Assembly: GCF_012979535.1 (NCBI RefSeq)
Contig: NZ_CP053015.1
Coordinates: 2,480,001-2,544,000 of the forward strand
Reading direction: 5' to 3'
From: Sphingomonas lacunae
Lineage (GTDB): Bacteria > Pseudomonadota > Alphaproteobacteria > Sphingomonadales > Sphingomonadaceae
Length of the DNA stretch: 64,000 nucleotides
Shown here: in pieces, positions 17,899 through 54,010 of the stretch
Position numbering within the stretch: the stretch's first letter is position 1
Layout: each line of letters opens with the position of its first letter
The notes under the pieces: model-generated
The model's database searches: none
Seen by the model: the letters and a program-made list of their open reading frames with translations, nothing else
What the model was told of the DNA's origin: nothing
Program-made: the position numbers and the translations under genes

Positions 17899-19560
17899 AT
17901 GAGCGAACGTGAATCAATGCCTTATGACGTGGTCATCGTCGGTGCTGGGCCGGCTGGCCTATCAGCAGCTATCCGCTTGAAACAAAAGGCGGGCGAAGCT
18001 GGCAAGGACGTCAGCGTCTGCGTGATTGAAAAAGGCTCGGAAGTTGGCGCGCATATTTTGTCGGGTGCTGTCATCGATCCCAAGGCGCTCGACGAACTCC
18101 TGCCTGAATGGAGGGATTCGGGCTGTCCGCTGGCGGCGACTCCGGTAACCGAGAATCACCACTGGATTCTCACCGAAAAGAAGAAGATCGACTTCCCGCA
18201 TTTCCTGCTGCCGTCGTTCATGAACAACCATGGCACCTACACCGGCAGCCTTGGCAGCCTGTGTCGCTGGCTGGCGGAGCAGGCCGAGGGACTAGGGGTC
18301 GAGATTTTCCCCGGTTTTGCGGCTGCCGAAGTCCTCTATGATGAAGCTGGCGCCGTGCGCGGTGTTGCTACCGGCGACATGGGCGTGACGCGGGATGGTG
18401 AGCAAGGGCCCGATTATCAGCCCGGTATGGAGCTTCATGCACGCTATACCTTGTTTGCAGAAGGTGCGCGGGGGCATCTGACCAAGCAGGTCAAGGCCAC
18501 CTATGATCTTGAGGCCGATTGTGACCCACAGGTTTATGGTATCGGTATCAAGGAGTTGTGGGACATTCCTGCCGACAAGCATGAGCCGGGGCGGGTGATC
18601 CACACACAGGGCTGGCCGCTCAATGTTGACAGCCACGCCAACGGTGGTGGTTTCCTTTATCATCAGGCCAACGGTCAGGTCGCCTTGGGCTTCGTCACCT
18701 GGCTCAGCTACAAGAATCCGCACCTCTCGCCCTTCCAGGAAATGCAGCGCTGGAAAACCCATCCAGCGATCAGGGCGATCCTCGAAGGCGGCAAGCGCGT
18801 ATCCTATGGCGCCCGCGCCATTACCGATGGCGGTTTCCAATCAGTGCCCAGGCTGGTCTTCCCCGGCGGCGCGCTGATCGGTTGCTGTGCCGGTTTCCTC
18901 AACGTGCCGCGCATCAAGGGCACGCATACTGCGATGAAATCGGGCATGATGGCGGCCGAAGCTGCGTTTGACGCGGTCATGGCGGATCGTGGCCAGGATG
19001 TTCTCACCACCTATCCGGAAGCCTATGAGGCGAGCTGGGTCTATGAGGAACTGCGCCTGGTTCGCAACACGGTGCCCCTCGTAAAGAAATTTGGCGAAAC
19101 GGCCGGGACCATCCTCGCTGGAACGACCATGTGGGCCGAACATCTCGGCATCAAAATGCCCTTCACCATGAAGCATAAGCCTGACCATGTCGGTATGCTT
19201 CGCGCAGACATCGCACCCAAGATTGACTATCCCAAGCCAGACGGTGTCATCAGCTTTGATCGCCTTTCTTCGGTGTTCCTTTCGAACACCAATCATGGCG
19301 AAGATCAGCCCTGTCACCTCAAACTCGGAGATCCTGATCGCCCGGTCGCCTACAACCTGCCGCTCTATGACGAACCGGCGCAGCGGTATTGCCCGGCTGG
19401 CGTTTATGAGGTCGTCGGCGAGGAGGAGGGCAACCCCCGCTTCCAGATCAACGCGCAGAACTGCGTCCACTGCAAGACCTGCGACATCAAGGACATGACC
19501 CAGAATATAACCTGGGTTTCCCCTGAAGGCGGTGGTGGCCCCAACTATCCGAACATGTGA
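17899..19560 (+). CDS. electron-transfer flavoprotein-ubiquinone oxidoreductase
   Basis: Inner-membrane-associated enzyme that passes electrons from reduced ETF to ubiquinone, linking acyl-CoA dehydrogenases to respiration. Residues 9-30 hold the FAD dinucleotide site (VVIVGAGPAGLSAAIRLK). The central part includes the family segments GAHILSGAVIDP and PRIKGTHTAMKSG. The C-terminal ferredoxin-like part binds one 4Fe-4S cluster through CPAGVYEV and NCVHCKTCDIK. Length 553 aa is usual. ATG 17899 follows GGTAGGAG. A possible LiuR-like site lies upstream. This fits joint use with the acyl-CoA dehydrogenase at 6.3 kb. Confidence 0.96.
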   Translation: MSERESMPYDVVIVGAGPAGLSAAIRLKQKAGEAGKDVSVCVIEKGSEVGAHILSGAVIDPKALDELLPEWRDSGCPLAATPVTENHHWILTEKKKIDFPHFLLPSFMNNHGTYTGSLGSLCRWLAEQAEGLGVEIFPGFAAAEVLYDEAGAVRGVATGDMGVTRDGEQGPDYQPGMELHARYTLFAEGARGHLTKQVKATYDLEADCDPQVYGIGIKELWDIPADKHEPGRVIHTQGWPLNVDSHANGGGFLYHQANGQVALGFVTWLSYKNPHLSPFQEMQRWKTHPAIRAILEGGKRVSYGARAITDGGFQSVPRLVFPGGALIGCCAGFLNVPRIKGTHTAMKSGMMAAEAAFDAVMADRGQDVLTTYPEAYEASWVYEELRLVRNTVPLVKKFGETAGTILAGTTMWAEHLGIKMPFTMKHKPDHVGMLRADIAPKIDYPKPDGVISFDRLSSVFLSNTNHGEDQPCHLKLGDPDRPVAYNLPLYDEPAQRYCPAGVYEVVGEEEGNPRFQINAQNCVHCKTCDIKDMTQNITWVSPEGGGGPNYPNM

Positions 19561-19567
19561 GTCCGAG

Positions 19568-19619
19568 TCCTCCCCGGTAACGGGGAGGGGGACCACCGCA
19601 GGTGGTGGAGGGGCGCGCG
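19568..19619 (+). repeat. left inverted repeat of DUF559 unit
   Basis: Double-hairpin repeat, inner end GGAGGGGCGCGCG directly abutting the nuclease ATG at 19620. The GGAGGGG provides that gene's ribosome-binding site. It begins eight bases after the ETF-QO stop. Confidence 0.8.
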
Positions 19620-20054
19620 ATGCTTAGCGGTACAAAAGGTTCAGTGAAACTGGCGCGCAAATTGCGGAGCGAGATGACTGTTCCTGAAGTGAAACTTTGG
19701 CAAGAGCTCCGCAAACGCCCGGATGGTCTGAAGTTTCGCCGCCAGCACCCCGCCGGTCCCTATATCATCGACTTTTATTGCGCAGCGGCGCGACTGGCGA
19801 TCGAGATTGATGGCGCTGCCCATGACAATGCGGCGAGGATTCAATCCGATGAACGGCGCTCGGTCTTTCTTCGTGAACAGCATATCGCCACAATGCGTGT
19901 ACCCGCCGAGGCGGTCATGGAAAATTTCGACGGAGCGGTGTTGAGAATATTGAGTGTCTGTCGTGAACGTTCCGATCGGATAGCATCGGAGGGCCGCGCG
20001 CCCCTCCACCATCCTCTGGATGGTCCCCCTCCCCGTTCCGGGGAGGATCAATGA
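19620..20054 (+). CDS. DUF559 (Vsr-like) endonuclease-domain protein
   Basis: 144-aa protein of the DUF559 family, which has the fold of very-short-patch-repair endonucleases (PD-(D/E)XK type). The N-terminal helix TVPEVKLWQELRKRP is followed by LKFRRQHPAGPYIIDFYC and LAIEIDGAAHD, which give the acidic residues of the active site. The frame continues through the right flanking repeat, so the last about 20 residues (from GRAPLHHPLDG) are encoded by repeat sequence. The stop overlaps the ispE ATG (ATGA). An upstream GTG at 19602 lies within the repeat and is less likely. The molecular role is unknown. Confidence 0.8.
   Translation: MLSGTKGSVKLARKLRSEMTVPEVKLWQELRKRPDGLKFRRQHPAGPYIIDFYCAAARLAIEIDGAAHDNAARIQSDERRSVFLREQHIATMRVPAEAVMENFDGAVLRILSVCRERSDRIASEGRAPLHHPLDGPPPRSGEDQ
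19995..20047 (-). repeat. right inverted repeat of DUF559 unit
   Basis: Inverted partner of the repeat at 19568. It overlaps the 3' end of the nuclease gene, and its outer end GGGGAGGA lies four bases before the ispE ATG and is the evident ribosome-binding site of ispE. Confidence 0.8.
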
Positions 20055-20893
20055 TCGAAACCGGCTACGCCAAGATCAACCTCGCGCTGCATGTCCGCAA
20101 GCGGCGTGATGATGGCTATCATGAACTGGAAACGCTGTTCGCCTTTGTCGATGATGGCGACCGGCTCTCTGTCGAGCCCGCTGAGCGCGACAGCCTGACG
20201 ATAAGCGGGGAGTTCGCAGCGGGCCTGACCTCCGGTCCCGACAATCTCGTCCTGCAGGCGCTCGAAGCCATGCGCGCGATGGTCCGTCCCGGCCAGCCAA
20301 CCATTCCCCCGCTCGCCATCAATCTCGACAAACGCTTGCCGGTGGCGGCAGGCATCGGCGGCGGATCGGCAGACGCCGCCGCGATGATCCGCCTGCTTGA
20401 CCGTCATTTCGTCCACAATGGCGACATGAAGGAGCTGGTCCTCGCCACCTCTCGCCTTGGCGCCGACGTCGGTGCCTGTATTGTCAGCCAGACCCGGCTC
20501 GGCCGCGGCACTGGCAACGACCTGCATATGCCGGGTGAGGATGATGCGAAGGACCTGGCCGTCCTCCTCGTCAACCCGCGACTGCCGCTGGCGACCGGCC
20601 CGGTATTCAAGGCGTGGGACGGTGTAGACCGTGGGCCGCTGGGCGAGGGCGCCGTCCTCGCGGCGGCACGGGCAGGGCGCAACGATCTGGAGGGGCCAGC
20701 CACCACCCTTTGTCCGGAGATTGACGAGGTGCTCACGCTGCTCCGTGCACAACTCCCCATCATGGCACGCATGTCGGGCTCCGGTGCAACCTGCTTCGCG
20801 TTGTTCCACTCGCTCGGCACCATGCAATCCGCTGCCATTCGCATCGCCGACGATCACCCTGACTGGTGGGTGATGGGCGGTCAATTGCGATGA
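20051..20893 (+). CDS. ispE: 4-diphosphocytidyl-2-C-methyl-D-erythritol kinase IspE
   Basis: GHMP kinase of the non-mevalonate isoprenoid pathway, phosphorylating the 2-hydroxyl of CDP-methylerythritol. AKINLALHVRKRRDDGYHELETLFA at the N-terminus carries the substrate motif, PVAAGIGGGSADAAA (near residue 100) the ATP-binding glycine loop, and ARMSGSGATCFALF the third GHMP motif. Length 280 aa is standard. The ATG overlaps the end of the DUF559 gene, and its ribosome site is made by the repeat of that element. Translation of this essential enzyme therefore depends on the inserted unit. The next gene overlaps by ATGA. Confidence 0.96.
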   Translation: MIETGYAKINLALHVRKRRDDGYHELETLFAFVDDGDRLSVEPAERDSLTISGEFAAGLTSGPDNLVLQALEAMRAMVRPGQPTIPPLAINLDKRLPVAAGIGGGSADAAAMIRLLDRHFVHNGDMKELVLATSRLGADVGACIVSQTRLGRGTGNDLHMPGEDDAKDLAVLLVNPRLPLATGPVFKAWDGVDRGPLGEGAVLAAARAGRNDLEGPATTLCPEIDEVLTLLRAQLPIMARMSGSGATCFALFHSLGTMQSAAIRIADDHPDWWVMGGQLR

Positions 20894-35035: not shown

Positions 35036-35866
35036 TCAAACTGCCTGAAGCTCGGTAAAGCCCATCGCGGCGAAGGGTGCCCATACTGGCTTAATGGCAA
35101 GTGGGCCGCCATTGTTTATGACCAATCGGCGTGGTGATGATGCCGGCCATGGCTGCCCAAGCGTCAACTGCAAAATGCGCCGCGCTATACCGTCACCGCC
35201 ATTGATGGTCTGAATATCGTTGGGAAACCCGACTTGCTTAACAGCTGCTTCGACAAGCTCGTCACGAACAAGAGGGAAGTGAGTGCAGCCCAAGACGATC
35301 CGATCAATCCAGAAACCCTTATCGTGCGCGTTCTCTAAACCCCGTATCGCATTGACATAGACCTGTGGGTCTACATACTGGCCGCGCATCTTTGCTTCGG
35401 CAGCAGCCACCAACTCGGGCGCGGCATAGCGAACGAGCAACTTCCCTTCGCAAAACTCTTGTTCCAGCCGATCGACATAAGGCTGTCGAATAGTCGCTTC
35501 TGTCCCCAGCAGACCAATCACCCCGGTTTCAGTTGATAGCGCTGCCGGCTTAATGGCAGGTACCGTGCCAACAAAGGGTGTATCAAGGGCAGCCCGGACA
35601 TGTGCAAGCGCGATGGTTGACGCAGTATTACAGGCAATAACAGCAACGCGGGGGCGGAAGCGTTCTATCAACCGCCCGAGAAGCGCCGAAACCCGAGTCC
35701 CAATTTCGGCCTCGCTCTTTTCGCCATATGGCAATCCGAGATAGTCGGTAGCATAGACAATGGGTGCTTGCGGAAGCAGGGCAAGCGTTGGCCGCAACAC
35801 AGAAACACCGCCAATACCGCTGTCGAAGAACAGGATGGGTGATTCAGGGGCGACAGGTTGCTGCAC
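35036..35866 (-). CDS. murI: glutamate racemase MurI
   Basis: Cofactor-independent racemase producing D-glutamate for peptidoglycan. The N-terminal FFDSGIGGVSVL, the first catalytic cysteine in ACNTAST and the second in LGCTHFPLV are intact. Length 276 aa fits. It diverges from plsY across 102 bases. It precedes hemA on the same strand. Confidence 0.96.
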   Translation of the reverse strand: MQQPVAPESPILFFDSGIGGVSVLRPTLALLPQAPIVYATDYLGLPYGEKSEAEIGTRVSALLGRLIERFRPRVAVIACNTASTIALAHVRAALDTPFVGTVPAIKPAALSTETGVIGLLGTEATIRQPYVDRLEQEFCEGKLLVRYAAPELVAAAEAKMRGQYVDPQVYVNAIRGLENAHDKGFWIDRIVLGCTHFPLVRDELVEAAVKQVGFPNDIQTINGGDGIARRILQLTLGQPWPASSPRRLVINNGGPLAIKPVWAPFAAMGFTELQAV

Positions 35867-51941: not shown

Positions 51942-52412
51942 ATGATTCGTACCGCGTTTTTATGCTTAATTGCGCTAGCAATGCCATCGTTCGCACTGAC
52001 TGCTAGTCCTTATACCATCGAAGGCGAATGGAGATTTTTCTATCTCGCTTCAAGCGATGAATGGAAGCTAATGTTTGCGGAAGAAGGCTCTTCTCACTCG
52101 CAAATGTACTTTTATTGTATTCCTAATAGTAACGAAATCACAGCGATTTACAGTGTTCCGGACGTTGACATACGAAACTATGTCCCAGAAATTCGCAGTG
52201 AAAGCGGCGTATACAACGATGATGCAAAAATTGAATTCAACGATGTGGACAGTTATTATTACGTCGCACAGACATTCCGTCCCGACTCTCCTTTTTTGAG
52301 AGAATTGGCCAATGGCGAAGATATTTCAGCGGGCGAGTCAATTTTTCCACTTTCCGCGCCTTATGACGGACGCATTTTTCGTGAATTCGCAAGGGCGTGT
52401 TCTTCTGCTTAG
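51942..52412 (+). CDS. AT-rich secreted protein of unknown function
   Basis: 156-aa protein with a signal peptide (MIRTAFLCLIALAMPSFALT). The mature part contains many aromatic residues (EWRFFYLASS, MYFYCIPNS, DSYYYVAQTF) and two cysteines, one near the C-terminus. Base composition is visibly lower in GC than its neighbours, with many codons ending in A or T. It stands directly between pccB and a hairpin repeat pair, which suggests late acquisition within the operon. I recognise no family. Confidence 0.65.
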   Translation: MIRTAFLCLIALAMPSFALTASPYTIEGEWRFFYLASSDEWKLMFAEEGSSHSQMYFYCIPNSNEITAIYSVPDVDIRNYVPEIRSESGVYNDDAKIEFNDVDSYYYVAQTFRPDSPFLRELANGEDISAGESIFPLSAPYDGRIFREFARACSSA

Positions 52413-52542
52413 CCCCTCCCCTTTAGGGGAGGGGTTGAGGTGGTGAGCACCGGTGATGCGCTTGGCCGAACCCGCCCCACCCCGCTGCGACTAAGCGGCA
52501 AGCCGCTAAGTCTAGCTGCCCCTCCCCTAAAGAGGAGGGGCG
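52413..52542. repeat. inverted pair of C-rich hairpin repeats
   Basis: The left unit has CCCCTCCCC-TTTA-GGGGAGGGG (52413-52434). The right, opposed unit has GCCCCTCC with GGAGGGGC (52519-52542) and an inner stem GACTAAGCGGC with GCCGCTAAGTC (one mismatch, 52489-52513). It resembles the paired hairpins flanking the DUF559 gene but has no gene inside. It could stop transcription or stabilise mRNA within the operon. Confidence 0.75.
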
Positions 52543-52565
52543 ATAAAGAACGAAGGTTTTAAATT

Positions 52566-53011: not shown

Positions 53012-53104
53012 CCGTTCACCCTGAGCTTGGCGAAGGGCCGCTCTTGCTTGGGAACGGAAGACTGAAAACAAAGGACGGGGCTTCGACAAGCTCAGCCCGA
53101 ACGG
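53012..53104. repeat. long inverted repeat, copy 1
   Basis: The left arm CCGTTCACCCTGAGCTTGGC continues GAAGGGC and the right arm GGGGCTTCGACAAGCTCAGC continues CCGAACGG; they pair over about 25 bases around a 38-base middle. It belongs to a palindromic intergenic repeat type common in proteobacterial genomes. It lies between mce and the enoyl-CoA hydratase-like gene. Confidence 0.85.
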
Positions 53105-53120
53105 AGAGAGAGGCAACAGA

Positions 53121-53915: not shown

Positions 53916-54010
53916 TCCGTTCGCCCTGAGCTTGTCGAAGGGCCGTCCTTGAACTTGGGGCGAACGGATCAATCAGAAGGGCGGGGCTTCGACAGGCTCA
54001 ACCCGAACGG
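53916..54010. repeat. long inverted repeat, copy 2
   Basis: Second copy, with arms CCGTTCGCCCTGAGCTTGTC-GAAGGGC and GGGGCTTCGACAGGCTCAAC-CCGAACGG. The two copies share their arms and differ in the middle. It ends 17 bases before the mutase start. Confidence 0.85.

Follow-up and report, generated by a model that had tools for sequence, protein, structure and literature searches.

The described systems closest to the locus reported here are the REP-RAYT units (REPtrons) and REPINs, in which an enzyme gene is framed by two inverted repeats (PMC2817692, PMC3116915, PMC3733652). As set out in the accessible parts of these papers, the repeats are dispersed as singlets and inverted doublets, the repeat type follows the enzyme type, and the enzyme is site-locked, as is stated for RAYTs (PMC3116915), and not found in multiple near-identical copies. 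REP families lacking a dedicated transposase are named there as an open question (PMC3733652). The DUF559 units described below resemble REPtrons in framing, dispersal, type coupling and site-locking, but unlike them they encode a PD-(D/E)XK nuclease and no HUH/Y1 domain.

A second repeat class, the triplex motifs (TM), was described in 2015, E. coli included, and in the portion of the paper available to us no gene is tied to it (PMC4666352). These motifs combine a hairpin with a mirror purine tract, the loop being limited to 1–6 nt, and occur as dispersed intergenic copies and inverted pairs, as do the repeats studied here. E. coli K-12 carries 23 copies of TMECO, an intrastrand triplex motif earlier called PIT. 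According to the same text, single-stranded TMECO DNA adopted a triplex in vitro whereas the duplex did not, and the authors' data did not support a stable triplex in vivo. They further state that transposase or integrase remnants were never found at the sites, and they associate intrastrand-triplex repeats with genome instability (PMC4666352).

The DUF559 domain is widespread and still carries the Pfam name 'protein of unknown function'. It is present in Caulobacter VsrA, which the available text ties to a methylation-dependent DNA-damage response (PMC12907096); VsrA and the Vsr mismatch endonuclease share the superfamily fold with the nuclease of the present locus. Fold and active-site pattern are likewise shared with I-Bth0305I (3R3P), whose family is treated in PMC3943268. 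In Thiomargarita, the authors of the hupL MITE link this inverted-repeat miniature element to a PD-(D/E)XK gene, but the nuclease is of the PD-(D/E)XK_2 (YhgA-type) family and the repeats are different (PMC4853749). In the open-access literature, to which our search was confined, no published link between DUF559 genes and triplex or inverted repeats came up among the matches listed, judged mostly by title; the subscription literature may hold an earlier description. The arrangement reported here recurs in many bacteria and may supply the enzyme that a long-known class of repeats has lacked.

Results

A DUF559 nuclease gene between two inverted repeats in Sphingomonas lacunae

The genome of S. 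lacunae consists of a single contig of 2.98 Mb, of which positions 2480001–2544000, i.e. 64,000 nucleotides, were analysed as a whole (the window; coordinates refer to it unless a genome is named). A segment of 480 bp (19568–20047) lies between the gene for electron-transfer flavoprotein-ubiquinone oxidoreductase (ETF-QO; 17899–19560, plus strand), a conserved neighbour in relatives, and an ORF with GHMP-kinase domains (20051–20893, plus strand), which we take to be ispE, the name given to it in the earlier note. The segment is made up of a left terminal inverted repeat (19568–19619, plus strand), a DUF559 nuclease gene (19620–20054, plus strand) and a right terminal inverted repeat (19995–20047, minus strand), which encodes the C-terminus of the nuclease (...PLHHPLDGPPPRSGEDQ). 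Counted from the ATG at 19620 the gene has 144 codons, while the ORF extends from an alternative GTG start at 19602 to 20054. Its product matches Pfam DUF559 with an E-value of 1.1e-26 and has a predicted Vsr/EDxHD-like PD-(D/E)XK fold. Both outer boundaries (query positions 1–480) were exact in 7 of the 11 related loci read.

The earlier note had described two inverted repeats of 52–53 bases around the gene, which differ in hairpin 2 by coordinated changes of the stem. This description holds: the 52/53-nt repeats align end to end with a local score of 77, as compared to a maximum of 25 in 100 shuffles, and the two copies of hairpin 2, ACCACC-GCA-GGTGGT in the left repeat (19592–19606, plus strand) and ACCATCC-AGA-GGATGGT in the right one, differ by matched changes in both halves of the stem. 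As single-stranded DNA, each repeat folds into two hairpins with minimum energies of -14.6 to -15.9 kcal/mol, and equally good folds were obtained in 0 to 5 of 200 shuffles. In the left repeat, hairpin 1 (19569–19588, plus strand) is composed of the 5' arm CCTCCCCG, the loop GTAA and the 3' arm CGGGGAGG. Hairpin 2 is followed by the distal purine tract GGAGGGGC (19607–19614, plus strand), which repeats the 3' arm of hairpin 1 in mirror order, 7 of 8 positions being compatible with base triads in the window repeats. Hairpin 2 is the linker between hairpin 1 and the mirror tract and, as such, exceeds the loop limit of the described triplex motifs. The repeat starts with TCCTCCCC, and by reading neither the window repeats nor the family representatives carry a GTAG tag. 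Lacking this tag and having a mirror third strand, the repeats differ from those of REPtrons and are not ordinary REPs.

The positions assigned in the earlier note to ribosome-binding sites were borne out as well. The motif GGAGGGG (19607–19613) sits 6 nt ahead of the nuclease ATG at 19620, the outer end of the right repeat, GGGGAGGA (20040–20047), lies 3 nt ahead of the ispE ATG at 20051, and the nuclease stop and the ispE start overlap (ATGA). On reading, the repeats thus appear to hold ribosome-site-like sequences for both genes, and this layout is consistent with the suggestion that the unit is tolerated since translation of ispE is preserved.

Across 25 diverse members of the nuclease family, 11 residues never vary, among them E23, D51, E62, D64, H68 and D77, and the median dN/dS ratio is 0.08–0.12 in four families. 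Judged by these sequence comparisons, the nuclease is under purifying selection and has an invariant predicted active site. Several relatives of the window type (subsequently designated W-type, for the repeat and nuclease type of the window unit) contain in-frame stops, and therefore copies also decay. A library of defence genes returned two weak matches, and PHROGs one weak match to a family of unknown function.

Flanking inverted repeats recur at DUF559 loci

Each locus was scored by the best inverted match between the 220 nt upstream and the 220 nt downstream of the DUF559 domain. The genus set comprised 80 genomes, S. lacunae among them, that probably represent Sphingopyxis, and 70 of these contain DUF559; 131 loci were taken from the better-scoring matches listed, and 129 remained after removal of two cut by contig ends. 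Flanking inverted repeats were present at 116/129 loci at a score of at least 38 and at 119/129 at a score of at least 30. The earlier note had proposed to check whether homologues lie mostly without flanking hairpins; most of those examined have them. When 11 further loci chosen by DNA similarity were included, 127/140 scored at least 38, whereas displaced control intervals reached this score once in 273 cases and shuffles in none of 140. Eleven of the 13 loci below 38 retain short matching hairpins, leaving L030 and L191 without them. The median length of the units is 458 nt.

Flanking repeats were not confined to the genus. A class-wide draw from the Alphaproteobacteria gave DUF559 matches in 93 of 289 genomes, from which 69 loci outside the genus were taken and, one of them being cut, 68 tested: 43 scored at least 38 and 45 at least 34, as compared to 0/131 controls at either level, and the loci scoring at least 34 spread over 31 of 42 families. 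A draw from the phylum (Proteobacteria) gave matches in 108 of 299 genomes, and 18 of the 35 loci tested outside the class scored at least 38 and 21 at least 34 (controls 0/68). The flanking pair was absent at the level of 34 in 23/68 loci outside the genus and in 14/35 outside the class. These rates apply to stronger DUF559 matches, from which the tested loci mostly came. Of 12 records fetched from a plasmid collection 11 were tested, and 6 scored at least 30 (4/4 from Deinococcus, 2/5 cyanobacterial, 0/1 from Azospirillum, 0/1 from Neisseria), the maximum among 22 displaced controls being 23. For the W-type, the best 80 of at least 532 relatives were evaluated; 74 scored at least 38 and 77 at least 30, and these 80 loci fall into 20 site clusters.

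S. lacunae possesses a second DUF559 gene of another type (genome positions 1576577–1576882), which is also framed by inverted hairpins, with a flank score of 38 compared to a shuffle maximum of 27.

The distal purine tract mirrors the hairpin arm

Across families the repeats follow one order, i.e. pyrimidine arm, loop, purine arm, linker and second purine tract. Depending on the family, the linker is a few nucleotides or an entire hairpin. The purine arm recurs in mirror order as the second tract, in which either A or T faces an A of the arm. Among the 107 repeats parsed, 89 have asymmetric arms; here the mirror outperformed the direct copy in 54 cases and the direct copy the mirror in 3, with 32 ties, and the direct-repeat reading of the distal tract was rejected. 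Because the two ends of each unit are counted apart in these numbers, the count by distinct arms (n = 34), in which mirror prevails over direct by 25 to 1, is the safer figure. A perfect mirror was present in 76 of 107 repeats paired with their own tract, as compared to 112 of 1014 pairings with the tract of another unit. In a second register test the alignment was chosen by G alone: all G residues of the arm were matched in 84/107 repeats in mirror but in 43/107 in direct order. Opposite interior A residues of the arm, this register placed A 87 times, T 65 times, G once and C never. As the tracts hold few C residues, the register is a stronger argument than the base counts. Outside the class the trend towards the mirror is weaker (16 versus 7, 12 ties, p = 0.09), a clear case being AAAGGGGGA with AGGGGGATT, and in some lineages, e.g. 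Deinococcus, tract and hairpin follow each other in the opposite order, as judged by eye.

Mirror pairing is the code of an antiparallel purine-motif triplex. By sequence, then, the repeats are intrastrand-triplex motifs, and the mirror order favours a triplex over a G-quadruplex as their predicted fold. The linker hairpin 2 varies freely in sequence among relatives, while self-complementarity is largely kept: 138 W-type repeats contain 62 distinct inner sequences, and the mean number of contiguous pairs in hairpin 2 is 3.17, compared to 0.42 after shuffling. Wobble pairs in the W-type hairpin 2, as read on the G-rich strand, comprise 16 G.T versus 2 A.C, a bias that suggests the G-rich strand as the putative folding strand. 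Rfam returned no match.

Repeat type and copy number follow the type of nuclease gene

Similarity of the repeats correlates with similarity of the nucleases. For 30 units, some of which share a slot, r was 0.449 (0/5000 permutations); with one unit per site it was 0.386 (17 units, 0/5000 permutations), and a looser site rule gave 0.437 (1/5000 permutations). Dispersed copies obey the same coupling. The W-type pattern matched 496 copies in 46/80 genus genomes and the pattern of a second type, the A-type, 326 copies in 60/80, while both patterns read backwards gave 0 copies each; with at most 52 exact-pattern copies per genome, the DUF559 repeats are less numerous than typical REPs. Genomes with a W-type protein (E-value of at most 1e-25; n = 41) contain on average 10.5 W copies versus 1.7 in those without (n = 39; p = 1.5e-8, kinship ignored), and genomes with an A-type unit, counted as the 22 fetched members only, contain 8.0 A copies, against an average of 2.6 in the 58 remaining genomes (p = 7.6e-8, kinship ignored). 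The cross pairs of gene and repeat type gave no significant difference (p = 0.55 and 0.12). Subtraction of the units' own repeats left p-values of 1.1e-4 for W and 4.4e-5 for A, kinship again ignored. Three genomes carry many W repeats despite having no W-type protein at an E-value of at most 1e-25 (17 in G033, 21 each in G064 and G038).

At least 14 tight repeat pairs were present among the rows listed, all of them head to head with 17–29 nt between the repeats, and S. lacunae has such a head-to-head pair at genome positions 1,349,255–1,349,373. Within the window, positions 52403–52550 comprise a broadly similar inverted pair (CCCCTCCCCTTTAGGGGAGGGG...) that encloses no gene; its arms are 84 nt apart, and its linker hairpin resembles those of other families. 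Another dispersed repeat, similar to GCTTCGACAAGCTCAGCCCGAAC, occurs in both orientations at 35247–35269, 53071–53105, 53916–53950 and 53977–54010.

Units are locked to sites, and slots occur both filled and empty

Units were grouped into families at a nucleotide identity of at least 78%. An initial criterion of 80 nt of common flank over-merged sites since dispersed repeats link flanks, and the analysis was redone at 200–400 nt. Of 20 families, all occupy a single site at 200 nt of shared flank and 19 at 300 and 400 nt; the halves of the twentieth share 256 nt of flank, and the pair is 79% identical. The 139 compared units occupy 18 sites, and therefore different families share slots too. Near-identical copies at two sites, as expected from recent transposition, were not seen: L094 and L179, whose proteins are 96% identical, looked like a two-site pair and proved to occupy one site. 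The nuclease gene is thus site-locked. Since families are confined to single sites and the closest units without a common flank are only about 76% identical, movement is old or rare. The earlier note had called the unit a REP-like mobile element with a nuclease replacing the Y1 transposase; the replacement agrees with the scarcity of Y1 genes documented below, but 'mobile' in the present tense is not supported by these sites. Terminal inverted repeats are a trait in common with insertion sequences and MITEs, from which the unit differs by the lack of near-identical copies at multiple sites.

No unit was present at ispE in any of 9 relatives read, 3 of which have a gap of 18–19 nt and 6 other sequence of 1.66–1.76 kb; the element is hence not a fixture of this position, which the earlier note had suggested to check. 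The genomes with the short gap are among the weaker matches to the window stretch. In L090, the only case checked, the slot contains a gene for a 554-aa TPR-repeat protein, for which a search of the S. lacunae genome, run without a positive control, gave no match.

Another slot, in front of a gene whose start sequence marks it as biotin carboxylase, is used by related units that share the outer boundaries of the window unit. Among 30 loci read there (L374–L403), a W-type unit is present in 15, the slot is empty with 5 nt in 6, and other sequence fills it in 9; by coordinates, the slot is empty in 15 genomes, S. lacunae included. Near the carboxylase start, the nuclease lies upstream on the same strand in 7 loci and upstream on the opposite strand in 4, and at L330 the motif is located upstream of the nuclease. 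One slot thus holds the unit in both orientations across lineages. By eye, no target-site duplication was evident at this slot. Filled slots have extra unaligned bases beside the repeats, which, together with the other sequence found there, weakens the slot as proof of precise insertion.

A proposed mechanism and competing explanations

We propose that the unit belongs to a system organised like RAYT-REPIN but built from non-homologous parts, namely a homing-endonuclease-like enzyme acting on triplex-forming ends, and we rate this reading as an even call. The 480-bp segment would be a compact unit of nuclease gene plus ends. The G-rich strand of the repeat would fold into a hairpin with a mirror purine third strand, the second hairpin serving as linker. 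Once this strand becomes accessible, which would probably happen at replication forks or in supercoiled DNA, the nuclease would recognise its own repeat type and nick or cut there, and host repair would copy or move the DNA bounded by the repeats. Single repeats and gene-less inverted pairs would spread in trans in this way, relocation of the whole unit would be rare, and the gene would stay at one slot for long periods, kept by selection. That the triplex forms in the cell, that the nuclease recognises and cleaves its repeat, and that repair drives spread and mobilisation are all steps that we infer. The reading builds on what was observed: the unit and its recurrence, the mirror order, the coupling of gene and repeat types, selection on the protein, its fold relatives, the empty and oppositely oriented slots and the scarcity of Y1 matches. 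Several observations count against it, namely the site-locked families without near-identical copies at two sites, the absence by eye of a target duplication and the extra bases in filled slots, the loci outside the genus and the class that have no flanking pair, the genomes rich in W repeats despite having no W-type protein, the number of W repeats in Y1-matching genomes, the DNA-damage response tied to VsrA, the results on TMECO in duplex and in vivo, and the weaker mirror trend outside the class. We speak of a variant of RAYT-REPIN because the two are organised alike, while both parts are non-homologous. If DUF559 and the triplex repeats are parts of one system, this would be a second, independent REP-like system beside RAYT-REPIN with another enzyme fold and repeat structure, and triplex DNA would gain a candidate natural recognition role in bacteria. 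If mobilisation by the nuclease were proven, the system would stand as a separate category.

By profile and by structure, the nuclease is most similar to 3HRL, a gonococcal 'endonuclease-like' protein with no function stated, followed by the homing endonuclease I-Bth0305I (3R3P; E-value 3.8e-5 by profile, 4.2e-4 by Foldseek), and its sequence and predicted model display the EDxHD fold and the acidic/His pattern of such enzymes. The gene might accordingly be that of a free-standing homing endonuclease, which would cut alleles of its slot that lack the unit and enter them through copying by homologous repair; its ends would serve in recognition, protection or regulation, and their dispersal would be a by-product. 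The uneven filling of conserved slots, some alleles of which are empty, the site-locked families (139 units at 18 sites) and the purifying selection all suit this idea, and 3R3P is the best solved relative after 3HRL. It does not readily explain why repeat copies follow the cognate gene type, and allelic copying alone does not give opposite orientations at one slot across lineages. Unlike I-Bth0305I, the window nuclease is framed by inverted repeats and has no separate DNA-binding domain in its 144 residues. To our knowledge, homing genes have no paired inverted hairpin ends, nor are genomes filled with their ends. We regard homing as unlikely.

The reading of a homing-endonuclease-like enzyme acting on triplex ends also has to be weighed against a role in host repair or resolution. 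DUF559 proteins might process triplex, hairpin or mismatch lesions, as VsrA may; the genes would persist next to the repeats because these are their substrate or regulator, and the repeats would have spread otherwise. The structural similarity to Vsr (1VSR, Foldseek E-value 0.025), weaker than that to I-Bth0305I, speaks for this, and the phenotype of Caulobacter VsrA (PMC12907096) and the tie of intrastrand-triplex repeats to genome instability (PMC4666352), as far as the available texts go, point in the same direction. A repair function would leave unexplained why the repeats stand inverted on either side of the gene with outer boundaries that recur, as well as the co-divergence of gene and repeat and the type-specific copy numbers, and it appears quite improbable to us.

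Alternatively, an unrelated transposase or recombination could move the repeats, and DUF559 genes would be cargo caught between two copies. Slots do collect DNA, given that the other sequence in 9/30 biotin-carboxylase slots amounts to 280–645 nt and apparently represents small unrelated genes. However, among 91 other genes (ORFs) in the same genus loci none was framed at a score of at least 38 and one at a score of at least 34, and the type-specific coupling of gene and repeat speaks against a passenger. Y1 (PF01797), the sole transposase family searched, gave no match in 65/80 genomes, including S. lacunae and the repeat-rich G063 and G073, while control genomes gave matches. In the 15 Y1-matching genomes W repeats are no fewer (mean 8.0 versus 5.8), and there a contribution of Y1 to the repeats may exist. 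We consider the passenger scenario very unlikely. Coincidental pairing of GC-rich intergenic hairpins, which are common and dispersed in the genomes of the genus, can practically be dismissed in view of the displaced intervals (1/273, 0/131, 0/68), the other genes (0/91) and the shuffles (0/140), all at scores of at least 38.

E. coli ycjD, TMECO motifs and plasmid-borne loci

The DUF559 gene of E. coli K-12, ycjD (b1289), is separated by 167 nt from the TMECO listed as no. 9 in the published table. An intact triplex motif overlaps the 3' end of ycjD in strain KE47, and the K-12 version of this motif is partly deleted; in the ycjD 5' sequence read, no such repeat was seen. This is one gene, which proves little alone. 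Two ycjD-less strains were considered as a clean empty site and discarded, as they carry an efflux gene cluster beside fabI.

More tentatively, intrastrand-triplex repeats may have their dedicated partners in DUF559 nucleases throughout the bacteria (here sampled as Proteobacteria, Deinococcus and some cyanobacteria), with ycjD and the TMECOs as decayed representatives. Together they would constitute a transposase-free, mobile or self-spreading class of DNA, in which a homing-type nuclease cuts at its own three-stranded ends and host repair does the copying. We hold this wider reading to be possible, though doubtful. If there is such a single system, the origin of triplex repeats becomes directly testable.

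Three Deinococcus plasmids (L529, L531 and L532) carry the DUF559 gene within the hpa cluster, each in another gap, and the order of the tracts in their repeats is reversed relative to the window.
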